This document shows, piece after piece, positions 23,843-40,491 of a DNA stretch of 64,000 nucleotides; within the stretch, counting starts at the first letter, position 1, and each line of letters begins with the position of its first letter. Origin of the DNA: Cupriavidus taiwanensis LMG 19424. GTDB taxonomy: Bacteria > Pseudomonadota > Gammaproteobacteria > Burkholderiales > Burkholderiaceae. Made by a program: the position numbers and the translations under genes. The notes beneath the pieces were generated by a model that saw only the letters and a program-made list of their open reading frames with translations, had not been told where the DNA came from and did no database searches. The stretch spans positions 1,730,001 through 1,794,000 of the forward strand of contig NC_010530.1 of NCBI RefSeq assembly GCF_000069785.1, read 5' to 3'.

Positions 23843-24070
23843 ATGACACTCTGCACTGCCTGCCAGGCCATTGAACGCCATGTGCGCGGCGCCCCCGGGC
23901 ATGCCGCACTGCGCATCACCGACACTCGCCGCATCAAGCCGCCGCGTTCGGCAGCCATCACCATCAGCAGCTTCGTCTGCCAGGATTGCGGCGCGCTGTG
24001 GACCTACCGCGACCAGAAGAGCGGGCCCGAACAAGGGTGGGACTTGCCTGCGCAAACGCCACAGCAATAG
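23843..24070 (+). CDS. small zinc-ribbon-like hypothetical protein
   Basis: A 75-residue protein with two CxxC pairs: CTAC near the N-terminus (residues 4-7) and CQDC near residue 47. Together they could form one zinc site. The ATG at 23843 follows ACCACGG, a weak ribosome site. It is divergent from cspA and convergent with icd. I recognise no family with confidence. Confidence 0.5.
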   Translation: MTLCTACQAIERHVRGAPGHAALRITDTRRIKPPRSAAITISSFVCQDCGALWTYRDQKSGPEQGWDLPAQTPQQ

Positions 24071-24090
24071 GCGCACCCGCGGCACAAACG

Positions 24091-24115
24091 AAAAACCCCG
24101 GACCAGGGTCCGGGG
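24091..24115 (-). terminator. intrinsic terminator of icd
   Basis: CCCCGGAC-cagg-GTCCGGGG (24096-24115) is an 8-bp stem. On the minus strand it is followed by TTTTT, the form expected for the end of the icd transcript. Confidence 0.8.
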
Positions 24116-24154
24116 TCTTGCTCACGGCCGGCCCGCCACGCGGGCCGGCGGCGC

Positions 24155-26392
<2,238 letters not shown>

Positions 26393-26740
26393 TGCTTCTC
26401 TCAGATCCTCTATCGGTGGGTGGGACTTCTGCCTGCCGGGTCACGGTCAGGGCAACAAACTAGGCGAAAAGTAGAATTTTGCCTCAGTTTGCTTTCAGGA
26501 ATCTGAAAACCACCGCATCCGGGGCGGCAATCGGGCAGAAATTTGGGTTGGCACCCGGCTTGCGGCGCCGGATGGCGTTCGTTGCACCTCAACGGTGCCG
26601 TCCAGGCGGCCGCTCTGCTATGTAGGGACAGGCAAGGGCACGCCGACTGACCGCAGGTGCCACCGACGGATCACATCCATACCGGGGGGGGGCGCCAGCC
26701 CTCTCCCCCTTGGGGAGAGGGAAAACCGCCGGCTGGCCCG
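26393..26740. other. 348-bp region upstream of icd and downstream of the chemoreceptor gene
   Basis: Contains the palindrome TTTCAG-gaat-CTGAAA at 26493-26508, about 100 bp upstream of icd, in the A/T-rich stretch most likely to hold its promoter. A partial copy of the CCCTCTCCC repeat lies at 26692-26721. No protein-coding gene is evident. Confidence 0.5.
26692..26721. repeat. CCCTCTCCC hairpin repeat, partial copy
   Basis: CGCCAGCCCTCTCCCCC followed by TTGGGGAGAGGG forms a short hairpin 20 bp beyond the chemoreceptor stop. The CGCCaGCCCTCTCCC part resembles the internal part of the long composite copies at 41.4 and 59.2 kb rather than the solo hairpins. Confidence 0.6.
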
Positions 26741-28282
26741 TCAGGCCGCCAGCCTGAACGTCGCCACCGCCTCCTTCAGCCGCTGCGCCTGTTCCTCCAG
26801 CGAACCTGCCGCCGCCGCGGCTTCTTCCACCAGCGCCGCGTTCTGCTGCGTCACCGTATCCATCTGCGTCACCGCCTGGTTCACCTGCTCGATGCCCGAG
26901 CTCTGCTCGGCCGACGCCGCGCTGATCTCGCCCATGATGTCGGTCACGCGCTTGACTGCCGCGACGATCTCTTCCATGGTCTGGCCCGACTGCGTCACCA
27001 GCATCGAGCCCTTCTCGACGCGATCGACCGAATCGCCGATCAGCGCCTTGATTTCCTTGGCCGCGGTCGCGCTGCGCTGCGCCAGGGTTCGCACTTCGCC
27101 CGCCACCACCGCGAAGCCGCGGCCTTGCTCGCCGGCGCGCGCGGCTTCCACCGCGGCGTTCAGTGCCAGGATATTGGTCTGGAACGCAATGCCTTCGATG
27201 ACGGCGATGATGTCGACCACCTTCTTCGACGCGCCGTTGATCTCTTCCATGGTCTCGGCCACCTTGCCCGCGACTTCGCCACCCTTGGCCGCGATATCGG
27301 ACGCGTTGACCGCCAGCGTGCTGGCCTGGCGCGCATTGTCCGCGTTCTGGCGCACGATGCTGGTCAGCTCTTCCATGCTGGCCGCGGTCTGCTGCAGCGA
27401 CGAGGCCTGTTCCTCGGTGCGCTGCGACAGGTCGGTGTTGCCTGCCGCGATCTGGCTGGTGCCGGACACGATCGATTCGGTACCGGCGCGCACCTGGCGC
27501 ACGATGCGCAGGATATTGGCGTTCATGTCCGCCAGCGCCTGCAGCAGCTGGCCGGTCTCGTCGCGGCTGTCGACCTCGATGCGGCTGGTCAGGTCGCCCG
27601 AGGCCACGGTGCGTGCCACCGCCACCGCCCGATGCAGCGGACGCGTAATGCCGATGGTCAGCCAGAACGCGAACGCAATGCCGATCCCCAGCACCACCAC
27701 GCCCAGCCCGATCAGGCTGTTGCGCGCATTGACGTAGATGGCGTTGATCTCGCGCGCGGTGGCGTCGATGCTGGCACGCTGGATGTCGAGCAGCTTCTGG
27801 ATCTCGGCCAGGTAGGCGTCGCCGGCGGGCACGAACTCTTTCTCCAGCACCTGGTTGGCTTCCTCGGTCAGGCCTTCCTGCTTGAGCCTGGTGATCTTGT
27901 CGCGGCCATTGTTGTACGGGTCGCGCACGCTCAGGATCTTCTGGAACGCAGCCTTTTCCTGCTCGGAGCTGAGCATCGGCTGCAGCTTGTCGCGCAGCTG
28001 CGCAATGCCTTCGATCGAGGCCTTGGTCTCGGCGGCAAAGAACTGGCCCAGTGACGGGTCGGCGCTGCGCGCCACCGCGGTGGTGCGGCGCACGCTGGTA
28101 TGCATGAGGCGGTACCAGTCGCTGACCAGCCGCTCCTTGGTCAGCGGTTGCTGCATCATCGCGTGGGTGCGCTCGGCCACCTGCTGCAGCCGCATCATGC
28201 CGAATACCGTCATCAGCGCCGACAGCAGCAATACCACCCCAAAACCGATGCCGAGGCGAACCCCGATACCTAGATTCTTCAT
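26741..28282 (-). CDS. methyl-accepting chemotaxis protein
   Basis: A 513-residue chemoreceptor: TM1 near residues 7-28 and a periplasmic four-helix-type sensor (about 30-185). TM2 is about residues 186-207 ([21 protein letters not shown]), then a HAMP domain. The signalling hairpin has the conserved tip [32 protein letters not shown]. There is no C-terminal CheR-tethering pentapeptide. I chose MKNLGIG at 28282, as in related receptors; an ATG at 28309 would add nine residues but has no ribosome site. The ligand is unknown. Confidence 0.9.
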
Positions 28283-28564
28283 TTCTTCTACCTGATTAGC
28301 ATTGGTCATGGCGAAGTGCTGCCGCACACGAAACGGCTCGGCGCAACGCTCTTCGCTCTCATCGTCCGCGGGCGGGCCGGCTCGGGCCGACGCACAGGCG
28401 GGCTATGGATGCCAACGGCAGGGGCGGCGGTAACTTTAGGGTCTTCCTCGATTGACGGCCAGAAGTGTGCGGATACCGGCTATAGTGGACAGGATCCCGG
28501 CCAAAAGGCGCACGCCGTCCCCGCCGCCGGCCGACCTGCCAGTCCTTCCACCAGGAGACCCAGC

Positions 28565-28999
28565 ATGGCCACGCCTCCCAATCCCTTTGCCGATTTCACC
28601 AGGATGATGGAACAGTTCCGCCTGCCAGGCGTGGACATGAGCGCGGTGATCGAAGCGCGCCGCAAGGACATCGAGGCCCTGGCCGAGGCCAACCGGCTGG
28701 CCTATGAAGGCATGCAGGCCATCGTGAAGAAGCAGCAGGAGATCTTCGCCCAGACCATGCAGCAGCTGCAGGCGGCCGCCCAGCAGTACGGCACGGCAAG
28801 CAATCCGGCGGAGGCGATGACCAGGCACAGCGAGTTCGTGCAACAGCAGCTGCACCAGGCGCTGGAAAACATGCGCGCGCTGGCCGAAACGGCGCAGAAG
28901 GCGCAAGCCGAGGCGCTTGCCGTGATCAGCCAGCGCGCCGAACAGAACGTGAAGGAGGCCGGCGAACTGCTCCAGCCGAAAACGAAATCCCGCGGCTAG
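28565..28999 (+). CDS. phasin family protein
   Basis: A 144-residue amphipathic, Gln/Ala-rich helical protein of the phasin family, which coats polyhydroxyalkanoate granules. Typical features are the N-terminal NPFADFTRMMEQFRLPGVDM and the helix ALAEANRLAYEGMQAIVKKQQEIF. AGGAGACCCAGC precedes the ATG at 28565. Its stop codon overlaps the stop of the convergent gene in the palindrome CTAG. Confidence 0.88.
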   Translation: MATPPNPFADFTRMMEQFRLPGVDMSAVIEARRKDIEALAEANRLAYEGMQAIVKKQQEIFAQTMQQLQAAAQQYGTASNPAEAMTRHSEFVQQQLHQALENMRALAETAQKAQAEALAVISQRAEQNVKEAGELLQPKTKSRG

Positions 29000-29301
29000 C
29001 GCCGCTCTGGCACGACCTGTCCAACCGCCTCGACCAGGCGCGCATGCGCGGCAAGGTCCACCGGCCGGTGTTTCACCTTGGTACTGGCCGGGTCGTTGCC
29101 CAGGTAATTGCCGTTCTTCCAGTCGCGCGCCGGCCGCACCGGCCGCGGCGCGAAGCCACCCCCGCAGTTCGGGCAGACATTGCCCAGCAGTTCGACGCAG
29201 CCCGTGCAGAAGGTGCATTCATACGAGCAGATGCGCGCTTCGGTGGAGTCCGGCGGCAGGGGCTTGTTGCAGTGTTCGCAGCCTGGTCTGAGTTCCAGCA
29301 T
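28996..29301 (-). CDS. DUF1272 family cysteine-rich protein
   Basis: A 101-residue protein with the DUF1272 pattern: MLELRPGCEHCNKPLPPDS, then ICSYECTFCTGC and NVCPNCGGG. This gives eight or more Cys arranged as a zinc-ribbon-like unit. The C-terminus is extended relative to the minimal domain. Function unknown. It ends tail-to-tail with the phasin gene, sharing the bases CTAG. Confidence 0.85.
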   Translation of the reverse strand: MLELRPGCEHCNKPLPPDSTEARICSYECTFCTGCVELLGNVCPNCGGGFAPRPVRPARDWKNGNYLGNDPASTKVKHRPVDLAAHARLVEAVGQVVPERR

Positions 29302-29586
29302 GGTGCTCGCTTCCTGATCTTGTGAACGGTTTTGGAATCCCGGTATCGTAGCCGGATTCCGCATGCGCGGGTCGGCTGACCTGCCCTGCCCGCTGCTGCG
29401 CGCCGATACCCCCGCCACGCTTTCGACCGCTGACCGCGCTGGCCGACGCTGGCATGGTCGCCCGGAAGATTCTTCCCTCTCCGCAGACAGCTCGCAGCCT
29501 CGTGCAGCCATCGCTGCACGCCATTGCTGAATACGCGAACGCCGCCAGCGCGGCCGGGCCGCTAACCTGCAGCACATCGACAGCAA

Positions 29587-29601
29587 TGAGAATTATTTTC
29601 A
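29587..29601. promoter_or_regulatory. Fur-box-like site before the C39 peptidase operon
   Basis: TGAGAATTATTTTCA matches the 7-1-7 Fur consensus TGATAATnATTATCA at 12 of 14 specified positions. It ends three bases before the annotated ATG. It would place the following operon under iron control, but the site has not been tested and its overlap with the start region is unusual. Confidence 0.5.
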
Positions 29602-29604
29602 TCC

Positions 29605-30255
29605 ATGCGATGTGCTCACCCCTGGAGGCCTTGCCGCGGACAGTCTGCACTGCAACGCCACACCATCACGTTGCTGGCGCTGGCACTTGGACAGGTTAGC
29701 CACGCCGCTGCAGTCGAGTCGCCGGTGCGCTCATGGAAGGCGATGCGCGATGAAGGCGTGGTCCGGCAACAGTATGACTATTCGTGCGGCGCCGCGGCGC
29801 TGGCCACGCTGCTGCGGCACTACTACGGAGAAGCGGTCAGCGAGACCGACGTCCTGAAGCAGATCGCCGCCAAGGGACCGGCCACGCTCAGCACCCTGTC
29901 GGCCGCGGCAACGCATTTTGGCTACGAAGCGCGCGGCTATGCGCTGTCGCTCGAGGCCCTGCGGCAGATCAATGTGCCCGCGATCGTGTTTCTCCACGTC
30001 GGTAACGACAATCACTTTTCGGTCCTCCGCAGTATCGATGCGCATTCGGTGGAACTGGCCGATCCTTCGCTAGGCAACCGCATCTACAGCACGACGGATT
30101 TCCTGAGGCTGTGGACCACCCGGCTGAACCGGAACTACCCCGGCCGCGCCTTGATCGTGATGCCGCGCGACGCAAGGCGGGCCGCAAATCCGGCCTTCAT
30201 GCGGCCGATTCCAGCCCGGTTCGCCGGGTTGACCCTGAGACCGTTCCGGCCATGA
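29605..30255 (+). CDS. stand-alone C39 cysteine peptidase, probably periplasmic
   Basis: A 216-residue peptidase of the C39 (double-glycine leader-cleaving) family. The Cys-His-Asp triad is complete: C61 in DYSCGAAALATLL, H137 in NDNHFSVL and D153 in ELADPSLG. Unlike bacteriocin exporters it has no ABC transporter attached. An N-terminal hydrophobic stretch (HTITLLALALGQVSHAAA) looks like a Sec signal, as in FapD of Pseudomonas functional-amyloid operons. The ATG at 29605 lacks a good ribosome site, so the start is uncertain. The stop overlaps the next ATG (ATGA). Confidence 0.85.
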   Translation: MRCAHPWRPCRGQSALQRHTITLLALALGQVSHAAAVESPVRSWKAMRDEGVVRQQYDYSCGAAALATLLRHYYGEAVSETDVLKQIAAKGPATLSTLSAAATHFGYEARGYALSLEALRQINVPAIVFLHVGNDNHFSVLRSIDAHSVELADPSLGNRIYSTTDFLRLWTTRLNRNYPGRALIVMPRDARRAANPAFMRPIPARFAGLTLRPFRP

Positions 30256-31157
30256 TCCGCCGCCTGACACGCGTAGCCACCGCCGCGGCCGCGTTCGCCC
30301 CATGCCACGCGTGGTCGCAAATCGTACCCACGCTGGAAGACTTGCTGACGGCCCAGAACCGGTGGCGAGCCGAAGCCGGCTTGTCCTACTTCAACCAGGA
30401 GGGCAGCGGCACCGCGGCCAGTGGTCCCATCTATATCCAGGTGGGGCCCAACATCATTCCCGTGGCGACCGGGGTCGTGCCCAAGACGCGCAATGTCGAT
30501 TCGCTGGTGGCGTATGCCGGCTTGCGCTACGGCTATTCGGCGAATACCGAACTGTCGTTTTCCGGCACCGGCTCATATACGAGTGAGCGGACGCTGTTCG
30601 AGGGCATCGATCAGCAGTCCAGCCATAGCACCCGCTTTTCCAGCCTCACTTTGGCCATCAGCCACCGCCTGCTCAAGGAGCAAGGCAGCCCCGGCCTGGT
30701 CGGCTTCGTGGAGACCGGCGCGGTGGAACACAGCGGCAATGCTGTCTCGTACTTCAGCAGCTTCACCGCCGGCGGCACGCTCTATCGCTCGATCGATCCG
30801 GTGGTGCTCAGCCTGAATGCCTCCTATCGCCTGAACCTGCCGCGGCATGACGGCATCGCGACGCCGGGCAACGTGTTGATGCTGACGCCGCAGGTGGGAT
30901 TTGCCGCCAACGAGACCGTCACGCTCTACGGCGGCATCAACTGGCAGTTGCAGCAGGCAGACAGCAATCCTCGAGGACTGCCCGCGCAACGCAACACACA
31001 AACCGCACTGGTCTTTGGCCTGGGCTATCGCGCCAGCGACCGGACCACCATTTCACTGAGCGGCAACGCCAATGTCAGCGGCCGCGGGGGTGCGCAGATC
31101 ACGCTCGGTACGGTAGTAAAGCTGGGCGCCATGCCCGCAAGGGAACGTTTGCAATAA
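30252..31157 (+). CDS. outer-membrane beta-barrel protein, putative exporter
   Basis: A 301-residue protein with a signal peptide (cleavage likely after CHAWSQ). Alternating amphipathic strands such as RWRAEAGLSYFNQ, GLRYGYSANTELSFSGTGSYTS and ITLGTVVKLGA suggest an outer-membrane barrel of the Phenol_MetA_deg/FapF-like kind. It is translationally coupled to the C39 gene (ATGA) and 26 bp before the leader-peptide gene, so it is a candidate secretion pore for that peptide. Barrel type and role are inferred. Confidence 0.65.
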   Translation: MIRRLTRVATAAAAFAPCHAWSQIVPTLEDLLTAQNRWRAEAGLSYFNQEGSGTAASGPIYIQVGPNIIPVATGVVPKTRNVDSLVAYAGLRYGYSANTELSFSGTGSYTSERTLFEGIDQQSSHSTRFSSLTLAISHRLLKEQGSPGLVGFVETGAVEHSGNAVSYFSSFTAGGTLYRSIDPVVLSLNASYRLNLPRHDGIATPGNVLMLTPQVGFAANETVTLYGGINWQLQQADSNPRGLPAQRNTQTALVFGLGYRASDRTTISLSGNANVSGRGGAQITLGTVVKLGAMPARERLQ

Positions 31158-31183
31158 CTCGCTTTGAGCTAAGGAGAAAATCC

Positions 31184-31612
31184 ATGGATCTGGTTCAGAA
31201 GACCCTGGCCGCGGTGGCGCTGGCCAGCCTCGGCGGCACGGCTTGCGCCAAGGCGGTGACATTCGAAGAGATCGAGCGTGCGGACACCGTATCAGGCCGG
31301 TACATCAGCCATCTGTCGGCGACGGAAATGGAAGCGGTGGAAGGGTCGGTGGCACCGGTCGTCATTGCCGGGGTTGCGGCGACCGCCGGCGCGATCGCCA
31401 ATGGCGGGGCCTATTGGGTGAATACGCCCAACCCCACCGCCGCCGGGCTGGCGTGGAACGCGGGAACGGGCTTTACCTCCGGCTTCCTGGGTGGCATCGC
31501 GTCAAGCTTGCCAAGGGTCGGCACCGTGCTGGTAACCGGCGCCGCGCCGTTCATCCCTGCACTCCCCCAGCCGCCGCTGCAGAAATGCGGCGCTGCCGGG
31601 CTGGCTTGCTGA
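31184..31612 (+). CDS. secreted peptide precursor with Sec signal and double-glycine-type leader
   Basis: A 142-residue precursor. Residues 1-24 look like a Sec signal ending AKA. Residues 44-55, LSATEMEAVEGS, match the double-glycine leader at every key position (L-12, S-11, E-8, M-7, V-4, G-2, S-1). The expected product is about 87 residues, Gly/Ala-rich, with helix-packing patterns (GVAATAGAIANGG, GTGFTSGFLGG) and two C-terminal Cys (135, 142), as in microcins or class II bacteriocins. Strong AAGGAG site. The adjacent C39 peptidase is the likely processing enzyme. An amyloid-like or adhesive product is an alternative. Confidence 0.65.
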   Translation: MDLVQKTLAAVALASLGGTACAKAVTFEEIERADTVSGRYISHLSATEMEAVEGSVAPVVIAGVAATAGAIANGGAYWVNTPNPTAAGLAWNAGTGFTSGFLGGIASSLPRVGTVLVTGAAPFIPALPQPPLQKCGAAGLAC

Positions 31613-31666
31613 CGCACGTCAGATTAACGGGCCGGCGCCATCGCCGCCGGCCGCCCGGAACCTTTC

Positions 31667-31984
31667 ATGGACATGGACTTAGGCATGACTGACTACGAAA
31701 GACTTCAGGCGCTCTGCAACGGCCTGGTCTTCTTCTATCTTGTGCCCAGGTACCTGCTGTTCCCGTCCCTGTATGCCGAGCGCTATCTGCGCACGGCGAT
31801 GATATTGGGCGCGGCGCTGGCAGCAAACTGTCTGTTGCTGTGGCAGACCCTCGGCGGCGAAGCCGCGCCAACACTCTACCGCGCATGCTTCGGCCCGGTG
31901 ATGAGCCTGCTGATGGCGCTGCTCCACTGCAAGATCGAGAAAGACAATCCCGGCTACTTCACCAATGCGGAGCGTCGCAGATGA
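31667..31984 (+). CDS. small membrane protein, tandem paralogue 1
   Basis: A 105-residue protein with about three membrane segments (LCNGLVFFYLVPRYLLFP, TAMILGAALAANCLLLW, FGPVMSLLMALLHC). The VPRYLLFPSLYAERY motif is shared with the next gene. It lies 54 bp after the peptide precursor and overlaps the next start as ATGA. A position beside a bacteriocin-like precursor makes immunity a reasonable guess, without direct evidence. In-frame ATGs at 31673 and 31685 are alternative starts. Confidence 0.6.
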   Translation: MDMDLGMTDYERLQALCNGLVFFYLVPRYLLFPSLYAERYLRTAMILGAALAANCLLLWQTLGGEAAPTLYRACFGPVMSLLMALLHCKIEKDNPGYFTNAERRR

Positions 31985-32331
31985 CAGGCACCCCGATCGC
32001 AGATCTCCAGCTCACCGTCCCCGGCATCGCCATGTTCGGTTACACCGTCATCGTGCTCATCGTGCTGGCGCCCAGGTATTGGTTTATCCCGGCGCTTCAC
32101 CGGCGCCTGTATGGCTGGGCGGCCGCTGCGCTGGCTGGGGTGCTGGCGCTCAACCTGTGCGTCTATTCCATGCTGATGCCGGCCAGGCCGCGCTTACCGC
32201 TCGATGAAGCGTTCGCGGGTGCGTGTCTAAGCTTGTGCCTGTCGCTGCTGCTATGCCATCGGGCCAGGGCTCGCCGCTCCGCTGCCGCGGCCACAACCCG
32301 GCCGCCGGCAGAGCAGCGCCGGCAGCAGTAG
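31981..32331 (+). CDS. small membrane protein, tandem paralogue 2
   Basis: A 116-residue protein with three hydrophobic segments. It is similar to the preceding gene in order and motif (APRYWFIPALHRRLYG against VPRYLLFPSLYAERY, and FAGACLSLCLSLLLCH against FGPVMSLLMALLHC). It has a basic, low-complexity C-terminal tail. Coupled by ATGA to paralogue 1. It is the last gene before the convergent gdhA. Confidence 0.6.
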   Translation: MTGTPIADLQLTVPGIAMFGYTVIVLIVLAPRYWFIPALHRRLYGWAAAALAGVLALNLCVYSMLMPARPRLPLDEAFAGACLSLCLSLLLCHRARARRSAAAATTRPPAEQRRQQ

Positions 32332-32344
32332 CTGCCTCGGGATA

Positions 32345-32367
32345 GCGGCCGGCATCGCGCCGGCCGC
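32345..32367. terminator. hairpin between convergent operon and gdhA
   Basis: GCGGCCGG (32345-32352) and CCGGCCGC (32360-32367) form a GC-only 8-bp stem between the two convergent ends. There is no clear U-tract. Confidence 0.4.
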
Positions 32368-32377
32368 CGCTTTCCCG

Positions 32378-33721
32378 TCAGATCACGCCCTGCGCCAGCA
32401 TCGCGTCGGCCACCTTGACGAAGCCGGCGATGTTCGCGCCTTCGACGTAATTGATGTAGCCATCCGCCTTCTGGCCGTGGTGGATGCAGTTCTGGTGGAT
32501 GTCCTTCATGATCGCGTGCAGCTTCTCGTCGACCTCGGCATGGTGCCAGGACAGGCGCATCGCGTTCTGCGACATCTCCAGGCCGGAGGTGGCCACGCCG
32601 CCGGCGTTGCTGGCCTTGCCCGGCGCGTACAGGATCTTGGCGTCGACAAAGCGGTCCACCGCCTCCAGCGTCGACGGCATGTTGGCGCCTTCGGCGACGC
32701 AGATCACGCCATTGCCGAGCAGGGTCTCGGCGTCGTTGCCGTCGAGTTCGTTCTGCGTCGCGCACGGCAGCGCCACGTCGGCGGGCACGTGCCACGGGGT
32801 GCGGCCGGCCTCGAAGGTCATGCCGTGGCGGGCGGCAAAGTCCGACAGGCGGCCGCGCTCTTCATTCTTGAAGGCCATCACTTCGGCCAGTTGCTCGGTG
32901 GTCATGCCCTGCGGGTAGTGCAGCACGCCGCCGGAGTCGGACAGCGTCAGCACCTTGGCGCCCAGCTCGATTGCCTTCTCGGCCGCGTACTGCGCCACGT
33001 TGCCCGAGCCGGAGATCAGCACGCGCAGCCCGTCGAAGCCGCGTCCGCGACGGTGCAGCATTTCCTGGGCGAAGTAGACGGTGCCGTAGCCGGTCGCTTC
33101 CGGGCGCATCAGGCTGCCGCCATAGGCCAGGCCCTTGCCGGTAAACACGCAGGCCGACTGGTTCGACAGCTTCTTCATCATGCCGGCCATAAAGCCGACC
33201 TCGCGCGCGCCCACGCCGATGTCGCCGGCCGGGATGTCGGTATCCGGGCCCAGGTGGCGGTACAGCTCGGTCACCAGCGCCTGGCAGAAGCGCATCACTT
33301 CACCATCCGACTTGCCCTTGGGATCGAAGTCCGATCCGCCCTTGCCGCCGCCCATGGGCAGCGTGGTCAGCGCGTTCTTGAAGGTCTGCTCGAAACCCAG
33401 GAACTTCAGCACCGACAGGTTCACGGTCGGGTGGAAGCGCATGCCGCCCTTGAACGGGCCGATGGCCGAGCTGTGCTGCACGCGGAAGGCGCGGTTGACC
33501 TGCACGCGGTTCTGGTCGTCGGTCCATGCCACGCGGAACTGGATCACGCGCTCGGGCTCGACCAGGCGTTCGAGCAAGGCCTGGTCGGCGTAGCGCGGAT
33601 TGCGCTCGACGAACGGCCACAGCGTCATCATGACTTCCTTCACGGCCTGGAGGAATTCGGGTTGATTGGGGTCGCGGCGGGCAACCCCCGCCAGAAATGC
33701 TTCAAGGGAAGGAGAATTCAC
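32378..33721 (-). CDS. gdhA: NADP-specific glutamate dehydrogenase
   Basis: A 447-residue GDH of the hexameric bacterial type, making glutamate from 2-oxoglutarate and ammonium. The catalytic region PMGGGKGGSDFDPKGKSDGEVMRFCQ and the substrate segment GPFKGGMRFHPTVNLSVLKFL are intact. A Rossmann motif SGSGNVAQYAAEKA follows. It is monocistronic; its promoter must lie in the 396-bp upstream gap. Confidence 0.96.
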   Translation of the reverse strand: MNSPSLEAFLAGVARRDPNQPEFLQAVKEVMMTLWPFVERNPRYADQALLERLVEPERVIQFRVAWTDDQNRVQVNRAFRVQHSSAIGPFKGGMRFHPTVNLSVLKFLGFEQTFKNALTTLPMGGGKGGSDFDPKGKSDGEVMRFCQALVTELYRHLGPDTDIPAGDIGVGAREVGFMAGMMKKLSNQSACVFTGKGLAYGGSLMRPEATGYGTVYFAQEMLHRRGRGFDGLRVLISGSGNVAQYAAEKAIELGAKVLTLSDSGGVLHYPQGMTTEQLAEVMAFKNEERGRLSDFAARHGMTFEAGRTPWHVPADVALPCATQNELDGNDAETLLGNGVICVAEGANMPSTLEAVDRFVDAKILYAPGKASNAGGVATSGLEMSQNAMRLSWHHAEVDEKLHAIMKDIHQNCIHHGQKADGYINYVEGANIAGFVKVADAMLAQGVI

Positions 33722-34117
33722 GGATGTCTCTTGCTGTGCTGGAGTGGCTGGATGCGGCAGCCTTGCCGGCTGGATGCCGGTCTGCGGTGCCGTCTGGCGT
33801 TGCGCCGATGGAAGGTGGGTCGCCTCCGGTTTATCGGACGGGCACGACTAACCGTGCCGGTCCGACAACCCAGCACTTTAGCACCGCCATGGGGCACACG
33901 ACAGTCAAAACACCTGTGACAGCAGCATCAAAGCTGTATTTTGGTGCATCAGGCGGGGATTTCCGTGCGATCAGCGGACAGCATCTGAAGTCACCCTTAA
34001 ATCTGTCCTCAGAAATAATCACGGCAATAACGCACAAAGATGGCATTCCTGGACGCATGGCACTAGTCACTGCTCCCTACACTCCGCTCGTCACAACATA
34101 AAGAACGAGAGGGAGAA
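33722..34117. other. 396-bp gene-free boundary region between gdhA and the accessory operon
   Basis: The divergent promoters of gdhA and the plus-strand operon must lie here. The sequence becomes noticeably more A/T-rich from about 33900, marking the left edge of an atypical stretch. One hairpin, GGACGGGCACG-actaac-CGTGCCGGTCC, with one mismatch, is at 33836-33863. An open frame across the region has no recognisable homology and was not called. Confidence 0.5.
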
Positions 34118-34861
34118 ATGAGCTCAACAACCACCGTACAGCATGAGATTGCGATACTCGCCGGGCCGGGGTCTGTCCGAAATGCGTCAGACTTTCGCAA
34201 CATGCCGTCGGAGTATCAGGAGCTCGCCATACGGCTGATGCTCGTCCATACGGAAGGCGAGCTTACGGGCGCGGACGACTATACCCAGATCTTTTACAAC
34301 CTGGCGCCCAATGCCTTCGAGAAACAGGTTTGCTGCGAGCGGGCATCGGAGGAGATCCAGCATTACCGGCTTAGTGCAGACGTGCTCGCCGAACTCGGCG
34401 TCGACACGGGTCACATGCTCCGCCAACATTTTCTGGAGCGTCCTTACTACCCGAACGAGCTGGTGCGCGGAGTCAGGAACTGGATGGAGCGCGGCATCTT
34501 CTCGTTCATTGGCGAGGCGGTCGTACTTGAACACCTCCTCGAATTCGCCGACTGCAGCTACAAGCCGTTCGCCGACATCTTCATCAAGCAGATTATCAGC
34601 GATGAGCATACCCACGTCGCGCACGGCTACCGCATTATCAATGAGGCCTGCATGACCGATGAAGGCCGAATTGCCGCCCAGCAGGCCCTGAGCCGGCTGT
34701 GGCCGCACCTGCTCGATCTGTTCGGGCGCTCCGACTCCCAGCGCTCGCGACTCTATATCAAGTGGGGCCTACGTAAGACAAGCAACGAGGCCTTGCGCAA
34801 TCAGTTCATCAAGAAAACGGTGCCGCGCCTGACGGCGATGGGCTTGCTCGTGCCGGACTGA
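34118..34861 (+). CDS. PaaA-like ferritin-fold di-iron protein
   Basis: A 247-residue protein of the phenylacetate-catabolism ferritin-like family but distinct from the PaaA at 5.1-6.1 kb. Likely iron ligands: Glu in HTEGELTG (about 46-48), E79xxH82 in SEEIQHYR, Glu in IGEAVVLEHL (133/138) and E163xxH166 in DEHTHVAHG. An oxygenase or oxidase role is inferred; the substrate is unknown. GAGGGAG precedes the ATG. It is first in a four-gene coupled operon. Confidence 0.75.
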   Translation: MSSTTTVQHEIAILAGPGSVRNASDFRNMPSEYQELAIRLMLVHTEGELTGADDYTQIFYNLAPNAFEKQVCCERASEEIQHYRLSADVLAELGVDTGHMLRQHFLERPYYPNELVRGVRNWMERGIFSFIGEAVVLEHLLEFADCSYKPFADIFIKQIISDEHTHVAHGYRIINEACMTDEGRIAAQQALSRLWPHLLDLFGRSDSQRSRLYIKWGLRKTSNEALRNQFIKKTVPRLTAMGLLVPD

Positions 34862-34890
34862 CCAACCGCGCGTTTGTTTGAGGAGGCGCC

Positions 34891-36078
34891 ATGAGCGAAA
34901 CAGATTCGCTGCACCAGCAACGCAAGCATCTGATCGCTGAGCGTTTGCCTGGGCTCCTTGCTCGGGATCCCGCACTGACCGAGCGCTTCAATGCGGTACG
35001 CAGCTTTTCTGCGCGCGTGCGGGCGGCCGAGTATCACCTGACGAACGCATGCAATATCCGCTGCAAGGGCTGCTGGTTCTTTGAGTTTGGCCACGACAAG
35101 CGTGCGCCTGAGGCCAAGAACCTGGCTCAGTGGACCACATTCATCGATGCACAGCGCAAGCAAAAGGTGAATGCAGCGCTGCTAATCGGCGGAGAGCCGA
35201 CGCTGTTTGTGGACCGAATTGCCGCCTTTGTGGAACGCATGCGCTTTGTCTCGATCTCCACCAATGGCCTCAAGCCATTCCCGAATACCGCGCCATTCGA
35301 GGATGTGACGGTCTTCATTACGCTGTTCGGCGGCGGACCGCTGGACGATGAATTGCGCGCCATCCGGCCCGGCGGGCGCAGATTCTCTGGCCTGTTCGAG
35401 ACCACGCTGGCCAACTACAAAGACGATCCGCGCGCATGTTATGTCTATGCCGTGACCGAAGGCGGCATCTCGTACATAGAGCCGACCGTACGCCGAATTC
35501 AGGAGAACGGTAACACGGTGACCTTCAACTTCTATAGCCAGTACAACACGGGACACCCCCTGCGCATGCGCAACGAGCAATTGTTGCTACGTGAAATGCT
35601 GCGCGTCCGCCAGCTCTTCCCGAATACGGTCCTGAACCATCCTGCACATATCGAGGCAATGGTTACCGGCCAGGCATGGTGTGGCACTTTCGGCTACGAC
35701 ACGTGCCCGAGCATCAGCCAGGATCACCCTGACAACCAGCAGCGCTTGGCTAACGGCAATCCCGGCCTGACGTTCTTCAACACATGGAAAGCCGACTTGC
35801 AGACGCTGGAGCGCTGCTGCACATCCGGCCACTGTGAAGGCTGCCGCGACAGCCAGGCGGTCTACAGCTGGCTCATCGTCAGCCTGGCGTGCTCGCTGGC
35901 ATCGACGGAAACCCTGCGCACGTGGGTGGAAGTGGCCGAGTCTTACTGGCGCCAGTTCATTTGGTCACCTTATCGGAAGACGCCAGGTAAAACGGCCGCG
36001 GACAGGTCCGCCAAAAGTACCGGCACGGTGCCCCCCGCCCGGCGCGCGGCATCCGCCTCCGAGGAAATTCTGACATGA
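34891..36078 (+). CDS. radical SAM enzyme of unknown specificity
   Basis: A 395-residue radical SAM protein. The cluster motif CNIRCKGC provides Cys 54, 58 and 61, and LLIGGEPTLF carries the SAM-binding GGE. Additional Cys near the C-terminus (WCGTFGYDTC and CCTSGHCEGC) could hold an auxiliary iron-sulfur cluster. AGGAGG precedes the ATG. The stop overlaps the next gene as ATGA. I cannot assign the reaction. Confidence 0.82.
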   Translation: MSETDSLHQQRKHLIAERLPGLLARDPALTERFNAVRSFSARVRAAEYHLTNACNIRCKGCWFFEFGHDKRAPEAKNLAQWTTFIDAQRKQKVNAALLIGGEPTLFVDRIAAFVERMRFVSISTNGLKPFPNTAPFEDVTVFITLFGGGPLDDELRAIRPGGRRFSGLFETTLANYKDDPRACYVYAVTEGGISYIEPTVRRIQENGNTVTFNFYSQYNTGHPLRMRNEQLLLREMLRVRQLFPNTVLNHPAHIEAMVTGQAWCGTFGYDTCPSISQDHPDNQQRLANGNPGLTFFNTWKADLQTLERCCTSGHCEGCRDSQAVYSWLIVSLACSLASTETLRTWVEVAESYWRQFIWSPYRKTPGKTAADRSAKSTGTVPPARRAASASEEILT

Positions 36079-36626
36079 GCTTCGTCGCGAGCCACGAACA
36101 TGCGCAGTCGCGGGCGCAGGGGCTGCGCCTGCCCGTTGCCGCCGAGGATCGCGCGCAATGGCAGCAGCGCCTGAACGCGCTGCCGGTGCTGCGCCACATG
36201 GGCGCGGAGCTTGACCTGACCGACCCTGCCGTAGTCCGGCTCCGTCTGGTGCGGCAACTCGATTCTCACATGGGAGGCCTCGGAACATCGGCGCTCAATG
36301 GTGCAGTGATCGCTGGAATGATCGACTGTGGCATATCGACCGCCGGCATCCTGCAGTTCCGCGGCCGCACGTGCGGAACGGTACACCTGTCGATCGATTT
36401 CATGAAGCCGGTGCGCATCGCGCTCCCTACGCTCGAGTGCCGCGTGGTGAGGCGCACGGATTCACTGGCATTTATCGAGGCGGGCCTGCTCGCACCTGAC
36501 GGCGGCACCAGCACCCAGGCAAGCGGCATCGTCGCCCTGGCACGTCTTCCAGCGAGAGACCCGGCGGGAGCACCGGCGGGAAACTGGCGAACGATTTTCA
36601 ACGATACCCTGCAGCAACATGCCTAA
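36075..36626 (+). CDS. hotdog-fold thioesterase, PaaI/4HBT family
   Basis: A 183-residue hotdog protein. The characteristic helix GLGTSALNGAVIAGMIDCGI (about residues 67-87) and the following strand GTVHLSIDFMKPVRIALP match PaaI-type thioesterases, which hydrolyse acyl-CoA or acyl-carrier thioesters. Its start overlaps the radical SAM stop and its end overlaps the next gene by 8 bp, so the genes are translated together. Confidence 0.8.
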   Translation: MSFVASHEHAQSRAQGLRLPVAAEDRAQWQQRLNALPVLRHMGAELDLTDPAVVRLRLVRQLDSHMGGLGTSALNGAVIAGMIDCGISTAGILQFRGRTCGTVHLSIDFMKPVRIALPTLECRVVRRTDSLAFIEAGLLAPDGGTSTQASGIVALARLPARDPAGAPAGNWRTIFNDTLQQHA

Positions 36627-37869
36627 GACACGCTCCATCTTGCAGCGCGCGGCGCGCATCTGCATCGCGGCGGGGGATCGCGCCGAGCAGCGGCACGTGC
36701 GCGAATCCATGCGCGATGCCGGCAGTTTCCTGCCTGGCCCGCTGTATCGCACTGTCCAGCGCTTCCTGACCTGGTTGACGGGCAAGGCCTTGCCCGGCCA
36801 ACAACCCGCCATCCTTCTCGGCCCCTGGTCGCACGTTGCGCTCAACACGCTGGCGTTGACCACCGGGGTGGCGCTTTCGTGCCTTGCATACGCGCGGGGC
36901 GGCGCTTGGTGGCTCGCGCTGCTGCCCGGTTGGCTGCTGACCGTACACGCTGCGCGAAAATTCTTCTTGGTGATCTGCCACGGAGGTATACATGAGGCAT
37001 TTTCTCGCCGAGCAAGCGTGAACAGGATGTTTGTCGATGTCGTGTCGTTGCTGCTTCTGACGTTGCCATATGAGCAATTTCGGCAGGATCACGCAATCGA
37101 TCACCACGCGCGCTACTTCTCCGGCAAAGGGGACCCGGACGCCGATGTGCTGTACGGCATCGGTCTTCGCCCCGGGCGCCAATTGGAAACGCTTTGGCTG
37201 GCCGTCGGCTGGGCGCTGGTAAACCCACGCTTTCATTTGCGCTACACGTTGGCGCGTGGCCGCGCCAACTTCGTCGGTGCGCTGCCACTGCGCCGTATGG
37301 CGGCCATACTCGCCTATGCCGCTGCCGGATGCGCGCTGACATGGTTCAACCTGTGGCCTGTCTTTCTGGTGGTATGGGCAATTCCGCTCACGGTCGGCTT
37401 CCAGAATGCGGCCCTGCTGACCTTTGCCGGCGAGCACAAATGGTTCCGCGTGCAAGGGGCGGACGAGCGCAGGGCCGCATGGCTGCAGCAGCAGACCTCC
37501 GCACGCTTCATGGGATGTCCCTATCCCTGTCGATGCGGAAGCGCAGTCAGGCATGTACTGCAACGCGCGGGGTGGTGGCTACGGATGCTGTGCTGGTTCC
37601 TGCCGCTGCGCTTGTTGGTAGTGCCAGGGGATATGCCGGTACACGATTATCACCACAGCAACCCGCGCGGCGACTGGACTAACACACTCTATGTCCGACC
37701 CGAATGGATCGCGCAGAATCGACCGCTGCATAGCGAGACGTGGGGGTTCTGCGCAGCGGTCAATAACGCACTACGGCCCATGAGCGAAATCCCGGTGGAC
37801 TATCTCGCCCATGGCGGCGCACCGATTGCGGCCAGCGAGCCGACGTTCGACTCGTTTACCGCGCTCTAG
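36619..37869 (+). CDS. membrane fatty-acid desaturase/hydroxylase-like protein
   Basis: A 416-residue integral membrane protein with the histidine-box pattern of di-iron membrane desaturases: H121-GGI-H125, H158-AID-H162-H163 and H342-DY-H345-H346. Hydrophobic segments lie near residues 72-90, 97-112, 137-150, 228-243 and 247-262. It probably desaturates or hydroxylates a lipid or acyl substrate. It is last of the coupled operon. Confidence 0.78.
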   Translation: MPKTRSILQRAARICIAAGDRAEQRHVRESMRDAGSFLPGPLYRTVQRFLTWLTGKALPGQQPAILLGPWSHVALNTLALTTGVALSCLAYARGGAWWLALLPGWLLTVHAARKFFLVICHGGIHEAFSRRASVNRMFVDVVSLLLLTLPYEQFRQDHAIDHHARYFSGKGDPDADVLYGIGLRPGRQLETLWLAVGWALVNPRFHLRYTLARGRANFVGALPLRRMAAILAYAAAGCALTWFNLWPVFLVVWAIPLTVGFQNAALLTFAGEHKWFRVQGADERRAAWLQQQTSARFMGCPYPCRCGSAVRHVLQRAGWWLRMLCWFLPLRLLVVPGDMPVHDYHHSNPRGDWTNTLYVRPEWIAQNRPLHSETWGFCAAVNNALRPMSEIPVDYLAHGGAPIAASEPTFDSFTAL

Positions 37870-37880
37870 CAAAGAGTTCT

Positions 37881-38086
37881 ATGACCGAGTCCCACATTGG
37901 CGCCGCCCACCTCGTCTACCTCGCGATCAGGATCCTCGGGATCTCGGTGGCGCCTGCCGGCACCCCGGCCAATGCGTGCCAGATCGGTTTTAGGGAGTGG
38001 TGGTCTTCCGGTTCGCCAACCCCAAGGCCTGGATGATGGGCCTTTCTGCTTCCTCTCTCTTCGTGCTGCACGCCGACAAGCTGTAG
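37881..38086 (+). pseudogene. decayed LysE/RhtB-family exporter remnant
   Basis: Two fragments of an amino-acid exporter remain in different frames. The first, from ATG 37881, reads GAAHLVYLAIRIL. The second, ending at TAG 38084-38086, reads VVFRFANPKAWMMGLSASSLF, the NPKAWMM segment diagnostic of the LysE superfamily. A frameshift and deletions separate them. A full protein would be about 200 residues, so this is a non-functional relic. Confidence 0.75.
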
Positions 38087-38138
38087 CCGGACCGGCCACC
38101 TATCATTCCCTTCCGCGACTTCCGACATTCCCCTCGAC

Positions 38139-39461
38139 ATGGACACCAAACAGATTACCAATGTTGCCGCCGGAATCCTCCCGAACGCTCATTTACACCC
38201 TTCCGCCAAATTCCCCAATGCGGAGGGCTTCGCCAGTCGCGTAGGCCGCGTGCAGAGTTCCGCTGTGCGAGACCTGCTGAAGTACAGCAAGATGCCCGGC
38301 GTCATCTCACTTGCAGGTGGAATACCTGCGTCGGACCTGTTCGATGCGGCAGGCCTGCGCGAATCGCTTGCGGCAGTCGTGGACAGCGACGCTACGTCCG
38401 CGTTTCAGTACGGACTGACCGAAGGCGAACCAGCACTGCGCGAACAGATCATGCACCTGCTGCGGCATCGCGGTATCGCCGCGAGTCCGGCTGGCATCCT
38501 GGTCACATCTGGCTCGCAACAAGGCCTGGATCTCGCGGCGCGTACTCTGCTCAACCCTGGCGACACGGTGCTGGTGGAACGGCCGTCGTATCTGGCGGCG
38601 CTGCAGGCATTCGGCCTTGCCGAGGCCAACATCGTCTCCGTGCCCTCCGATGAAGCGGGCATCGATGTGGACTGGATCGAGTCCTATGCCTCGCGTCATC
38701 CGGTCAAGGCCATTTACGTCGTCCCGAACTTCGGTAATCCCAGCGGGCGCACACTCTCCCTGGAACGGCGGCAGCAACTCACCCACTTTGCCGGTTCCAA
38801 CGGAACCTACATCATCGAGGATGATCCCTATGGCGAACTGCGACTCTGCGGCGACCCCGTCGCCAGCATCGTGGCGCTCGCAGCGGAAAGTGCTGCGCAG
38901 TGTCGCGTGCTTTACCTGTCGTCGTTTTCCAAGATCCTGTCTCCTGGCCTGCGCGCCGGCTGGATGGTCTTACCCCCATCGGTGTTCGACCGCGCTGCGC
39001 TGGTTAAGCAGGCGATCGATCTCCACACATGCAGTCTCTCCCAGCAGCTCGTTGCGGCATATCTGGCTAACGGACGGTTGCAGCCCCGGTTCGAGCTGCT
39101 ACGGAACGCGTACCGTGAGCGACGCGACGCGCTGATTAGCGGACTGCACCGCCACCTGGGCGAGGCTATCCATTTCAATGTCCCGGAAGGCGGGATGTTC
39201 CTGTGGGCCCGATTCGCACCGCAGGTAGACACCGCGCGGGTGCTGCAGGCCGCTATTCAAGCCGGCGTAGTCTTCGTGCCGGGCGCCGCATTCTTTGCCG
39301 ATACTCCCGAACGTAATACCCTCCGCCTGTCGTACTCGACCGTCGACGCCGAGTCCGCTGACATCGGCGCCTCCAGACTGGCCCAGGCGCTGCGCGCCAG
39401 CTGCAACGGCGCTCTGCCTCCGGCCATTCCGGCCGACGGAATGCGCAAGGTCAAAAACTGA
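38139..39461 (+). CDS. PLP-dependent aminotransferase, class I/II (2-aminoadipate transaminase-like)
   Basis: A 440-residue fold-type I aminotransferase. It has AFQYGLTEGEPALREQI, the PLP-contact segment VVPNFGNPSGRTLS and the Schiff-base Lys in YLSSFSKILSPGLRAGW. It lacks the winged-helix domain of MocR regulators, so it is an enzyme, closest in pattern to LysN/aromatic or aminoadipate transaminases. It follows the exporter remnant and precedes an AraC gene. A link to the upstream operon is possible but not shown. Confidence 0.85.
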   Translation: MDTKQITNVAAGILPNAHLHPSAKFPNAEGFASRVGRVQSSAVRDLLKYSKMPGVISLAGGIPASDLFDAAGLRESLAAVVDSDATSAFQYGLTEGEPALREQIMHLLRHRGIAASPAGILVTSGSQQGLDLAARTLLNPGDTVLVERPSYLAALQAFGLAEANIVSVPSDEAGIDVDWIESYASRHPVKAIYVVPNFGNPSGRTLSLERRQQLTHFAGSNGTYIIEDDPYGELRLCGDPVASIVALAAESAAQCRVLYLSSFSKILSPGLRAGWMVLPPSVFDRAALVKQAIDLHTCSLSQQLVAAYLANGRLQPRFELLRNAYRERRDALISGLHRHLGEAIHFNVPEGGMFLWARFAPQVDTARVLQAAIQAGVVFVPGAAFFADTPERNTLRLSYSTVDAESADIGASRLAQALRASCNGALPPAIPADGMRKVKN

Positions 39462-39515
39462 AAATTCATACCTGAAAGCGCGAAATTTCCGGAGGATCTA
39501 CCCACTTCGCGGGCA

Positions 39516-39543
39516 TTGGACACCGTTGGCGCGTTGGTAGAAT
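39516..39543 (+). promoter_or_regulatory. sigma-70-like promoter of the AraC gene
   Basis: TTGGAC (39516-39521) and TAGAAT (39538-39543) are 16 bp apart. Transcription would start about 20 bp before the ATG at 39571. Confidence 0.55.
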
Positions 39544-39570
39544 CGAGCACATACCTAAAGGACTGCCTCG

Positions 39571-40491
39571 ATGACGGTGCGCAAGCTCGATTTCCGCAAT
39601 CCGGACCACCATGCCTCGTTGTTTTCCGTCGCGCCTGTGCGCAGCAGCACGCCGTACGACTGGAAAGCGTTGTATTTCGAGCGGCGCGACGATGCACTGT
39701 TCCAGACCGGCGAGCACGCCATTGACGGGCACTATCTGATGGTCAAGCTCAATCCGCTCTCGATCGCGGAGCGCCGCATCGACGGCAGACTGCGTACTGA
39801 AGTGCAGCGTCGCGGTTCCACCGCTTACGTGCCAAACGGATGCAGCCACAGCGTGCGCTATGTGCGTCCGCTCGGCAGCCTGTGCCTCATGACGCTGCAT
39901 GACTGCACGCTGCACGAAGTCGCCGACGAGCTCGGCGTCACAGGTTTTGACGGTGTGCCAACCTTTGCCCAGGCGCCAGACAACTTCGTGCTCAACGCCT
40001 TTGAGGCGCTCGACCGGGAACTGCGCAACGGCAATCCACACGGCGCGCTAATCGGTGAGACGTATGCACGCCTCGTAGCGGCGCATATCGTGACGTGCTA
40101 CGGCAAAGGGCCTCGCGTTGGCGGCCGCATGCCGGCGTTGGCTATCGCGCGCATGAAACAGCTGGATGAGTACATAGACGCGCACCTCACGCATCGCATA
40201 ACGCTGGAGACATTGGCCCGGCAAGCGGGCCTCAGCCCTTACTATTTCACTCGCGTGTTCAAGGACGCCACTGGCCTGCCGCCCTATCGCTACGTCCTGC
40301 ATAAGCGCATCGAATCTGCCTGCGCCGCCTTGCGCCGTGACGAGCTTTCGATTGAAGGTGTGGCGCTAGCCTGCGGCTTCAGCGATAACGCCCAGTTCTC
40401 CAAGCAGTTCAAGAAGATCTGCGGCGTAACGCCATCCGTCTATCGAATGGCGTGCAGGCGGGAGAAAATGCCGGAATCGCTTGACGCATGA
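39571..40491 (+). CDS. AraC-family transcriptional regulator
   Basis: A 306-residue regulator. The C-terminal 100 residues hold two helix-turn-helix units (RITLETLARQAGLSPYYFTRVFKDATG and LSIEGVALACGFSDNAQFSKQFKKICGVTP). The N-terminal AraC-binding-like domain probably senses an effector. AAAGGA precedes the ATG. It closes the A/T-richer accessory stretch and is a candidate regulator of the aminotransferase or of the radical SAM operon. Confidence 0.88.
   Translation: MTVRKLDFRNPDHHASLFSVAPVRSSTPYDWKALYFERRDDALFQTGEHAIDGHYLMVKLNPLSIAERRIDGRLRTEVQRRGSTAYVPNGCSHSVRYVRPLGSLCLMTLHDCTLHEVADELGVTGFDGVPTFAQAPDNFVLNAFEALDRELRNGNPHGALIGETYARLVAAHIVTCYGKGPRVGGRMPALAIARMKQLDEYIDAHLTHRITLETLARQAGLSPYYFTRVFKDATGLPPYRYVLHKRIESACAALRRDELSIEGVALACGFSDNAQFSKQFKKICGVTPSVYRMACRREKMPESLDA

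Follow-up and report, generated by a model that had tools for sequence, protein, structure and literature searches.

The window analysed here, a stretch of 64,000 nucleotides from Cupriavidus taiwanensis LMG 19424, contains five plus-strand genes encoding a stand-alone C39 peptidase, an outer-membrane barrel, a peptide precursor and two small membrane proteins that we call TM1 and TM2 (Table 1). A preliminary description of this DNA had read them as one operon. All five are indeed present on the plus strand, but the proposed start at 29587 falls on a stop in the C39 frame, and the C39 gene begins at 29605. The barrel and TM2 starts overlap the ends of C39 and TM1, respectively, in an ATGA. Two other Cupriavidus genomes have the same five genes at the corresponding site, which makes the set more than a chance neighbourhood; a failure of the genes to co-occur, named in the preliminary description as the finding that would speak against it, was not seen, as all five stand together in three of the 60 genomes searched (its own included). 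Scans for promoters and terminators gave no more than in shuffled sequences, and PADLOC found nothing. The GC content of the operon (64.7% vs. 66.6% for the window) was not telling as to horizontal transfer, and weak matches to DUF481, PorP, DUF2721 and a cerein model, all under their cut-offs, were dropped.

Table 1. Genes and precursor segments of the operon, with positions in the window.
Feature	Position	Strand	Remarks
Stand-alone C39 peptidase	29605..30255	+	216 aa, signal-like N-terminus, Q55/C61/H137/D153
FapF/NapF-type 12-stranded outer-membrane barrel	30252..31157	+	301 aa
Precursor, whole gene	31184-31612	+	142 aa
Precursor residues 1-23, signal-peptide-like segment	31184..31252	+	read from sequence
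Precursor residues 24-55, double-glycine-type leader	31253..31348	+	predicted C39 cut after G54-S55
Precursor residues 56-142 and stop, predicted mature 87-aa core	31349..31612	+	evidence from P0002-P0008
TM1, a small membrane protein with a putative immunity role	31667..31984	+	105 aa
TM2, related to TM1, likewise with a putative immunity role	31981..32331	+	116 aa

The peptidase matches PF03412 (E=1.7e-24), and the C61/H137/D153 triad recognized earlier is complete; together with Q55 it is invariant in a 24-row alignment (A1). The genome has five C39 matches, of which only the stand-alone peptidase lies within the window; accordingly, no ABC exporter with a C39 domain was detected in the window, in agreement with the preliminary description. 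Under the FapD equivalog model NF058616 the peptidase scores 83 bits, below the cut-off of 330. Profile A1 recovers three gonococcal C39 proteins of stand-alone size, among them the presumed NapP (E=2.8e-84), matches that are not independent given that the profile already included two meningococcal-type rows. Identity to P0058 of N. meningitidis is 41%. In a quick tree with an unresolved base, the presumed NapP (L141) falls within a 36-row clade (SH-aLRT 98) and the window peptidase forms with those of L134 and L010 a clade of its own (99) outside it, belonging neither to the main nap clade nor to that of Fap. The gonococcal C39 of L034, for which no barrel was found, groups with another gonococcal C39, L143, and not with the presumed NapP.

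The second gene, previously called beta-barrel-like, encodes a homologue of FapF, which forms the pore in the outer membrane for the amyloid system of Pseudomonas. Profile A3 matches the FapF structure 5o67 (E=7.9e-9), and a Foldseek search with the AlphaFold2 model (pLDDT 81.7, with residues 1-26 under 50) gave FapF at all ranks from 1 to 11. The resemblance to FapD/FapF suspected before holds for both proteins, for the barrel by profile and fold. The 301 residues leave no room for the periplasmic coiled coil of FapF, strand 1 beginning at residue 38. Two gonococcal barrels are recovered by profile A3, two of whose rows are from Neisseriaceae. One, at 171 kb, is matched over its full length (E=2.7e-105), the other over half the model (E=1.5e-50), at positions 9-166 of 291 only. 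The latter lies 3.3 kb from the presumed NapP, and it is from this barrel-C39 spacing that the locus in the gonococcal record was taken as the nap island. Direct tblastn of the window barrel against the 171-kb barrel gave 36.9% over 86%. Phage records contained no barrel match at E<=1e-5.

The precursor has a signal-like N-terminus and then the double-glycine leader noted before, which is canonical and ends at G54-S55. All seven canonical positions are present (L-12, S-11, E-8, M-7, V-4, G-2 and S-1), and T47, E48, M49, V52, E53, G54 and S55 are invariant in the eight rows of precursor alignment A4, from which P0007, lacking its first residues as annotated, was left out. P0009-P0012, leader-only homologues with a common N-terminus and different sequences thereafter, were not counted as precursors. 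The predicted core is hydrophobic (GRAVY 0.76), with 16% Gly and a net charge of +2, and ends in KCGAAGLAC. A glycine zipper is unsupported for this core (8 small-residue i/i+4 pairs vs. 8.8 in shuffles), and an AlphaFold2 model of the precursor (mean pLDDT 46.6) was discarded. A hydrophobic, glycine-containing core beside a barrel and a peptidase of the FapF/FapD superfamily could be that of a small Fap-like subunit, a protein with a structural role at the surface or in biofilms, with TM1 and TM2 as inner-membrane helpers or holin-like proteins. We consider this quite unlikely: the lack of FapB/FapC repeats noted before extends to all six frames of 24001-40000 (16 kb), where neither the exact published FapC-type repeat nor at least 7 of its 10 fixed positions were matched, the core has only 7% N+Q, the FapD model score argues against it, and loci with several precursors differing in core, described below, are not readily explained by structural subunits. 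It is highly improbable that the core is a cell-to-cell communication signal, with TM1 and TM2 as receptor or transporter, as pheromones are usually shorter than this hydrophobic core of 87 residues and the five operon genes gave no kinase or regulator match; what speaks for it is that double-glycine peptides can be pheromones, a role suggested for the meningococcal type I peptides (PMC2784325).

TM1 and TM2 show three hydrophobic segments each. Their paralogy, claimed from the start, is traced through family members: in a small BLAST set, TM1 of L010 matches TM2 of L134 (E=1.6e-5), and L131_a matches both kinds. Neither protein has a Pfam or NCBIfam match above cut-off, a known immunity family or a functionally named relative. 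The preliminary description gave them no role; from the sequence data, our best reading is that they may be immunity proteins. In genome G029 both TM genes are open, and the same site holds only remnants of the barrel and precursor, without C39. In G080 a tandem TM pair stands without precursor or machinery nearby, so the family may have other roles.

A motif search revealed a nearby precursor with the conserved leader in 33 of 42 C39+barrel loci, the window included. Among 25 Fap-type loci it was seen in 2, and among 14 loci without a visible barrel in 3, and 50 residue shuffles gave an average of 0.2 loci. The leader is typically LSxxEMxETEGA, that of the window ending in VEGS and not TEGA; the motif leaves position -1 free, and 11 of the 38 hits have a residue other than Ala or Ser there. 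In nine of the 42 loci the search did not find the motif; L042, one of these nine, has it on the strand of the barrel. A barrel-only search of 369 genomes, from which eight loci were fetched, found C39 within 5 kb in all eight and the leader in six; as two were already in the first set, the new counts are 6/6 and 4/6. Within 600 nt downstream, a small ORF with at least two hydrophobic stretches follows 22 of 38 precursors, vs. 5 of 290 other long-ORF ends, and was undetected for the other 16. In four loci there are several precursors (two or three) whose leaders are almost the same and whose cores differ: six of nine within-locus pairs (four of five loci) share 54-59 of 60 leader residues, the exception being L012, whose precursors do not have near-identical leaders. 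Loci of the general type were seen in Alpha-, Beta- and Gammaproteobacteria, Campylobacterota, Aquificota and one Nitrospirota MAG, and on two Acinetobacter plasmids; the relatives in other bacteria encode differing peptides, often beside small membrane proteins with a possible part in protecting the producer.

DNA identity with the nearest Cupriavidus allele (G014), taken in 150-nt steps, is high in the barrel (94-99%), the leader (95%) and gdhA (95-99%), whereas the core (77-89%), TM1 (79-81%) and TM2 (65-81%) diverge together. The stretch upstream of C39 diverges too (63-85%). Values of dS are 0.09 for the barrel, 0.11 for gdhA, 0.19 each for C39, leader and MCP, 0.38 for the core, 0.45 for TM1 and 0.57 for TM2. 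The contrast of core and TM genes with leader, barrel and gdhA was absent from a second allele comparison: with the C. necator allele the core is better conserved (72% at the amino acid level) than the leader (59%) or the signal (43%), so a fixed leader with a variable core fails for this pair.

From the gene content, homologies, leader, predicted barrel fold, co-occurrence and the cassette pattern observed in several loci, we infer how cleavage, route, export, toxicity and immunity might be arranged. The precursor would be made with a Sec signal and then a double-glycine leader, be delivered by Sec to the periplasm and be cut there by the stand-alone C39 peptidase after G54-S55. The 87-residue core would exit through the FapF-like barrel, and TM1 and TM2, in the inner membrane, would shield the producer against its own core. 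Leader, peptidase and barrel would form a chassis, and the core and TM genes an exchangeable cassette. Such a modular export line for a small hydrophobic secreted protein, with TM1 and TM2 as immunity proteins, is in our judgement somewhat probable. The route from Sec through a periplasmic C39 to an outer-membrane barrel, put forward in the preliminary description, is favoured by the FapF-like barrel, the signal-like segment with its canonical leader and the 33 of 42 loci.

More tentatively, and at slightly less than even confidence, we suggest that the operon is one of a class of polymorphic Gram-negative peptide weapons, widespread and for the most part undescribed, chromosomal and plasmid-borne, with a Sec signal and LSxxEMxETEGA-type leader, a periplasmic C39, a FapF-like barrel and cores travelling with their own small membrane immunity genes. 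If the cassette reading is true, many bacteria have in common a simple chassis that secretes in two steps and whose cargo and immunity genes can be exchanged. Narrow-range antibacterial peptides could then be sought in a new place, and Gram-negative cells might gain a tool for secreting small proteins.

In class II microcin-type systems an immunity gene is adjacent. These systems and the Neisseria type I GG peptides (PMC2784325) resemble the operon in the double-glycine leader, C39 cut and small product; here, however, the five genes include no ABC exporter or adaptor, and the precursor has its own signal-like segment. The contact-dependent glycine-zipper bacteriocin Cdz of Caulobacter also consists of small secreted proteins with an immunity protein, CdzI, of three predicted TM segments, but it uses type I secretion, and the portion of the Cdz paper drawn on here describes no stand-alone C39 or FapF-like barrel (PMC5380434).

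The nap island of Neisseria gonorrhoeae, published in 2025, comprises NapP, NapF, NapABC, NapI and NapH, with periplasmic cleavage and then export through NapF as the proposed route (PMC11798529). Like it, the window locus combines a stand-alone, NapP-homologous C39, a FapF/NapF-type barrel and a GG-type precursor; according to the same source, NapI is a proposed LagC-like immunity protein and NapH a small three-TM inner-membrane protein, which we set beside TM1 and TM2 by description. The island differs in its Naps of 16-36 aa, compared by length alone with the one predicted 87-aa core here, and in having C39 and barrel at opposite ends where ours are adjacent; the window also has two related TM genes and a full-length barrel, whereas the presumed nap-island barrel is matched only in part. 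In that account the gonococcal Naps, the one relative tested, act in autolysis and showed no antimicrobial activity, which speaks against our favoured reading. By the same export route, the core could likewise act on its own producers, causing autolysis or fratricide at a time set by the TM proteins, as befits a system whose closest studied relative acts so and whose gonococcal C39 and barrel counterparts match the window-family profiles. We regard this as the least improbable of the alternatives, but still unlikely, in view of the different predicted mature lengths and because TM genes without machinery, and a core that diverges in one block with its TM genes, fit inter-strain conflict better. 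Given that both peptidase and barrel have homologues in the nap island and in FapD/FapF, the idea of export is well founded and the system is of a known kind; the route is less novel than first thought, the nap island being a published system of C39, FapF-like barrel, GG peptides and immunity-like proteins. What is new comes from the locus comparison: the frequency of the leader motif, the multi-precursor loci and the downstream small multi-helix ORFs.

With Fap systems the operon shares a periplasmic C39 peptidase and a homologous 12-stranded outer-membrane barrel, from which it differs by the lack of amyloid repeats and of coiled-coil length on the barrel and by its canonical GG-type leader. 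FapD works in the periplasm and requires its Cys; the 2017 paper describes Fap proteins as being without a GG-type leader and this C39 peptidase class as uncharacterised (PMC5557850), and FapD's substrate is given as undetermined in the 2017 and 2018 papers (PMC5557850, PMC6173800). If the wider reading as a class of peptide weapons is true, the leader would also reveal the substrate of a C39 peptidase in the periplasm, a step that the Fap work leaves open. A peptidase of this kind with an obvious candidate substrate makes the FapD-type substrate question directly testable.

The window is part of a 2.5-Mb contig, in which the five operon genes lie tightly packed between a DUF1272 gene and gdhA. 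ATGA overlaps join the C39 peptidase gene to the barrel gene, and TM1 to TM2. All five plus-strand genes of the preliminary description were found; position 29587, which it gave as the peptidase start, reads as a stop in the peptidase's frame, and the gene begins at 29605. Beyond gdhA, three packed ORFs of 247, 395 and 183 aa (34118-36626) look like a separate small pathway; by reading only, the 395-aa ORF has a radical-SAM-like CxxxCxxC and the 183-aa ORF is thioesterase-like.

Genes of the operon (window coordinates)
Gene	Position	Strand	Length
C39 peptidase	29605-30255	+	216 aa
Barrel	30252-31157	+	301 aa
Precursor	31184-31612	+	142 aa
TM1	31667-31984	+	105 aa
TM2	31981-32331	+	116 aa

The peptidase matches PF03412 (E=1.7e-24) and falls under the NCBIfam cut-offs for FapD (83 bits vs 330) and FilB (65 bits vs 475). 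Its proposed catalytic residues C61/H137/D153 are borne out by the alignment, and the catalytic Cys is preceded by Gln55, the residue with the oxyanion role. In a quick tree of 95 rows, Fap-type peptidases formed one group (35 rows, SH-aLRT 91) and the main nap-type peptidases, gonococcal rows among them, another (36 rows, SH-aLRT 98). The window peptidase formed its own clade with those of genome G014 and C. necator (SH-aLRT 99), further loci with a close barrel also fell outside the main nap clade, and the base of the tree was not resolved. A second C39 of stand-alone size in the window's genome (a 301-aa frame, L002, G000:C3:58254-58661) groups with the Fap-type rows and has similar matches in many genomes of the genus. 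No Pfam family exceeded its cut-off for the barrel. A profile of 34 barrel rows matches FapF in the PDB (E=7.9e-9), the AlphaFold2 model (mean pLDDT 81.7) has some 12 long strands, and Foldseek returned FapF at every rank from 1 to 11. The proposed route of Sec export, periplasmic C39 cleavage and passage through the barrel is well supported by homology.

Residues 1-23 of the precursor read as signal-like, the leader carries L-12, S-11, E-8, M-7, V-4, G-2 and S-1, and the predicted hydrophobic core of 87 residues ends in KCGAAGLAC. Searched against 5.8 billion proteins, with scoring of the 7,995 candidates that had most words in common, the precursor had 11 relatives among those candidates, four alike in the N-terminus only and five organism-named, all Cupriavidus. 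TM1 and TM2 are mutually related, with three hydrophobic segments each; of their 17 database matches, the window's own counted, the seven organism-named are all Cupriavidus.

A C39-alignment scan of genome contigs confirmed at least 574 relatives; the best 80 and the window gave 81 loci. A barrel profile derived from part of those same loci sorted them into three groups: 42 had a close barrel (E<1e-30), 25 a distant one, FapF-like and mostly longer, and 14 none visible, some of these sitting at contig ends. Among these best-scoring loci, counting motifs that follow a hydrophobic stretch, share the strand of the C39 and lie no more than 4.5 kb away, the leader was present in 33 of 42 close-barrel, 2 of 25 distant-barrel and 3 of 14 no-barrel loci. 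Shuffled ORFs of the close-barrel loci gave a mean of 0.2 loci with the motif (maximum 1 hit). Position -1, unconstrained in the motif, was Ala or Ser in 27 of the 38 hits and another residue in 11. Since the motif had been loosened once examples had been seen, it was tested on other loci, taken from a barrel-only search (E<=1e-25) through 369 genomes of the class to which the window belongs. Six genomes matched, the window's own included, at 11 places; from the five others, eight were fetched, leaving out the own locus and two places in the gammaproteobacterial genome G129. A C39 lay within 5 kb in 8/8 and a leader in 6/8, or 6/6 and 4/6 without duplicates of loci L042 and L059, three of those six being from G129. 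The C39/barrel peptide system is sporadic in distribution. G129 itself (L149, L152-L156) has six nap-type barrel matches, with a C39 adjoining the barrel in all four fetched. In seven loci (L016, L018, L020, L024, L028, L032 and L036) a protein of 181-224 aa with several hydrophobic segments immediately precedes the C39.

Of 38 precursors, 22 had an ORF of 45-135 aa with at least two hydrophobic stretches within the next 600 nt; so did 5 of 290 other long-ORF ends from these loci (Fisher p=1.4e-19, a generous value because near-copies occur among the loci and the control takes in spurious ORFs). Nine precursor pairs came from the five loci that carry more than one precursor. In six pairs (L137, L018, L028 and L031), the leaders agreed at 54-59 of their last 60 residues and the cores were poorly alignable (3/14, 8/28, 15/42, 1/7, 13/41 and 36/89); the three L012 pairs showed no near-identical leaders (17-22 of 54-59 residues kept). 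The mobilizable 6.3-kb Acinetobacter plasmid pTR11_4 carries such a locus, in the order barrel, precursor, 108-aa three-TM ORF, C39, toxin-antitoxin pair and mobilisation genes, and on the 135-kb plasmid p12SAAs474 there are three precursors with a small ORF behind each (with 2, 1 and 3 hydrophobic stretches). The Halomonas locus L028 has, besides two precursors, four consecutive small multi-TM ORFs downstream of the C39 (6645-7995), possibly a store of immunity genes. Because of these core-plus-membrane-protein cassettes and the family-wide leader, TM1 and TM2 are candidate immunity proteins, open to experiment.

Within Cupriavidus, 3 of 60 genomes, the window's own included, had a close C39 (at least 72%) and a close barrel (at least 83%): G000 (the window's own), G014 and G070. 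In all three the precursor and both TM genes occupy the same site, in keeping with the expected co-occurrence of the genes; loci L010 and L133 are one and the same. In G009, C39 and barrel are distant relatives (40% and 30%), with a precursor-like ORF elsewhere. Between the window and G014, identity upstream is 95-97% for phasin, 87-93% for DUF1272 and 63-85% for the intergenic stretch; it is 87-96% for the C39, 94-99% for the barrel and 95% for the leader, drops to 77% in the core, 79-81% in TM1 and 65-81% in TM2, and returns to 95-99% in gdhA. The dS values, rough and from short segments, step from 0.09 (barrel), 0.19 (C39), 0.19 (leader) and 0.11 (gdhA) to 0.38 (core), 0.45 (TM1) and 0.57 (TM2), a step that points to exchange of core, TM1 and TM2 as a block. 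The comparison with the C. necator allele does not fit a fixed leader, because the core is better kept (72% amino acid identity) than leader (59%) or signal (43%); dS is 0.8-1.1 over the whole operon, 1.7 in the signal segment and 0.25-0.28 in the flanks. At the operon site G029 is without C39 and barrel. Its TM1 and TM2 are still open and adjoin the tail of a barrel and a precursor fragment of the first 58 residues; farther on lie LysR, aldehyde dehydrogenase and MFS genes. G002 retains the precursor start alone. In G080 two TM relatives stand in tandem at a different site; its genome gave neither a close C39 nor a barrel, and the 12-kb region there contained no precursor match. The simplest account of such machinery-free TM genes is that they are orphan immunity genes; the G080 pair could also reflect another role for the TM family.

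The operon is real and of a kind already known. The gonococcal nap island comprises NapP (C39), NapF (FapF-like), NapABC (GG peptides), NapI (LagC-like) and NapH; Naps are described as promoting autolysis and not inhibiting other bacteria, and napI deletion in the wild type as impossible (PMC11798529). In gonococcal NZ_CP119142.1 (loci L138 and L140), the presumed NapP has a barrel 3.3 kb away, a 188-aa open frame that covers only model positions 9-166/291; at about 171 kb (L138), far from the presumed nap island, a full-length FapF-like barrel is followed by a leader-bearing ORF. Meningococcal GG peptides are reported with ABC exporters (PMC2784325), and CdzI, with three predicted TM segments, confers immunity (PMC5380434). 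Homologues of fapD and fapF had already been seen co-located in five further phyla, the FapD substrate being given as undetermined as of 2018 (PMC6173800). Listings and abstract openings of open-licence literature gave no account of the leader-bearing family at large or of its cassettes; any novelty would rest on that family-wide leader and on the core-plus-membrane-protein cassettes. Judged from homology, the operon would work like nap and FapDF, as a divergent branch not clearly within the nap clade. FapD is described as acting in the periplasm and requiring its Cys, with a target left unclear in that paper, which reports canonical C39 sequences as lacking in Fap proteins (PMC5557850), whereas the window precursor carries a canonical leader.
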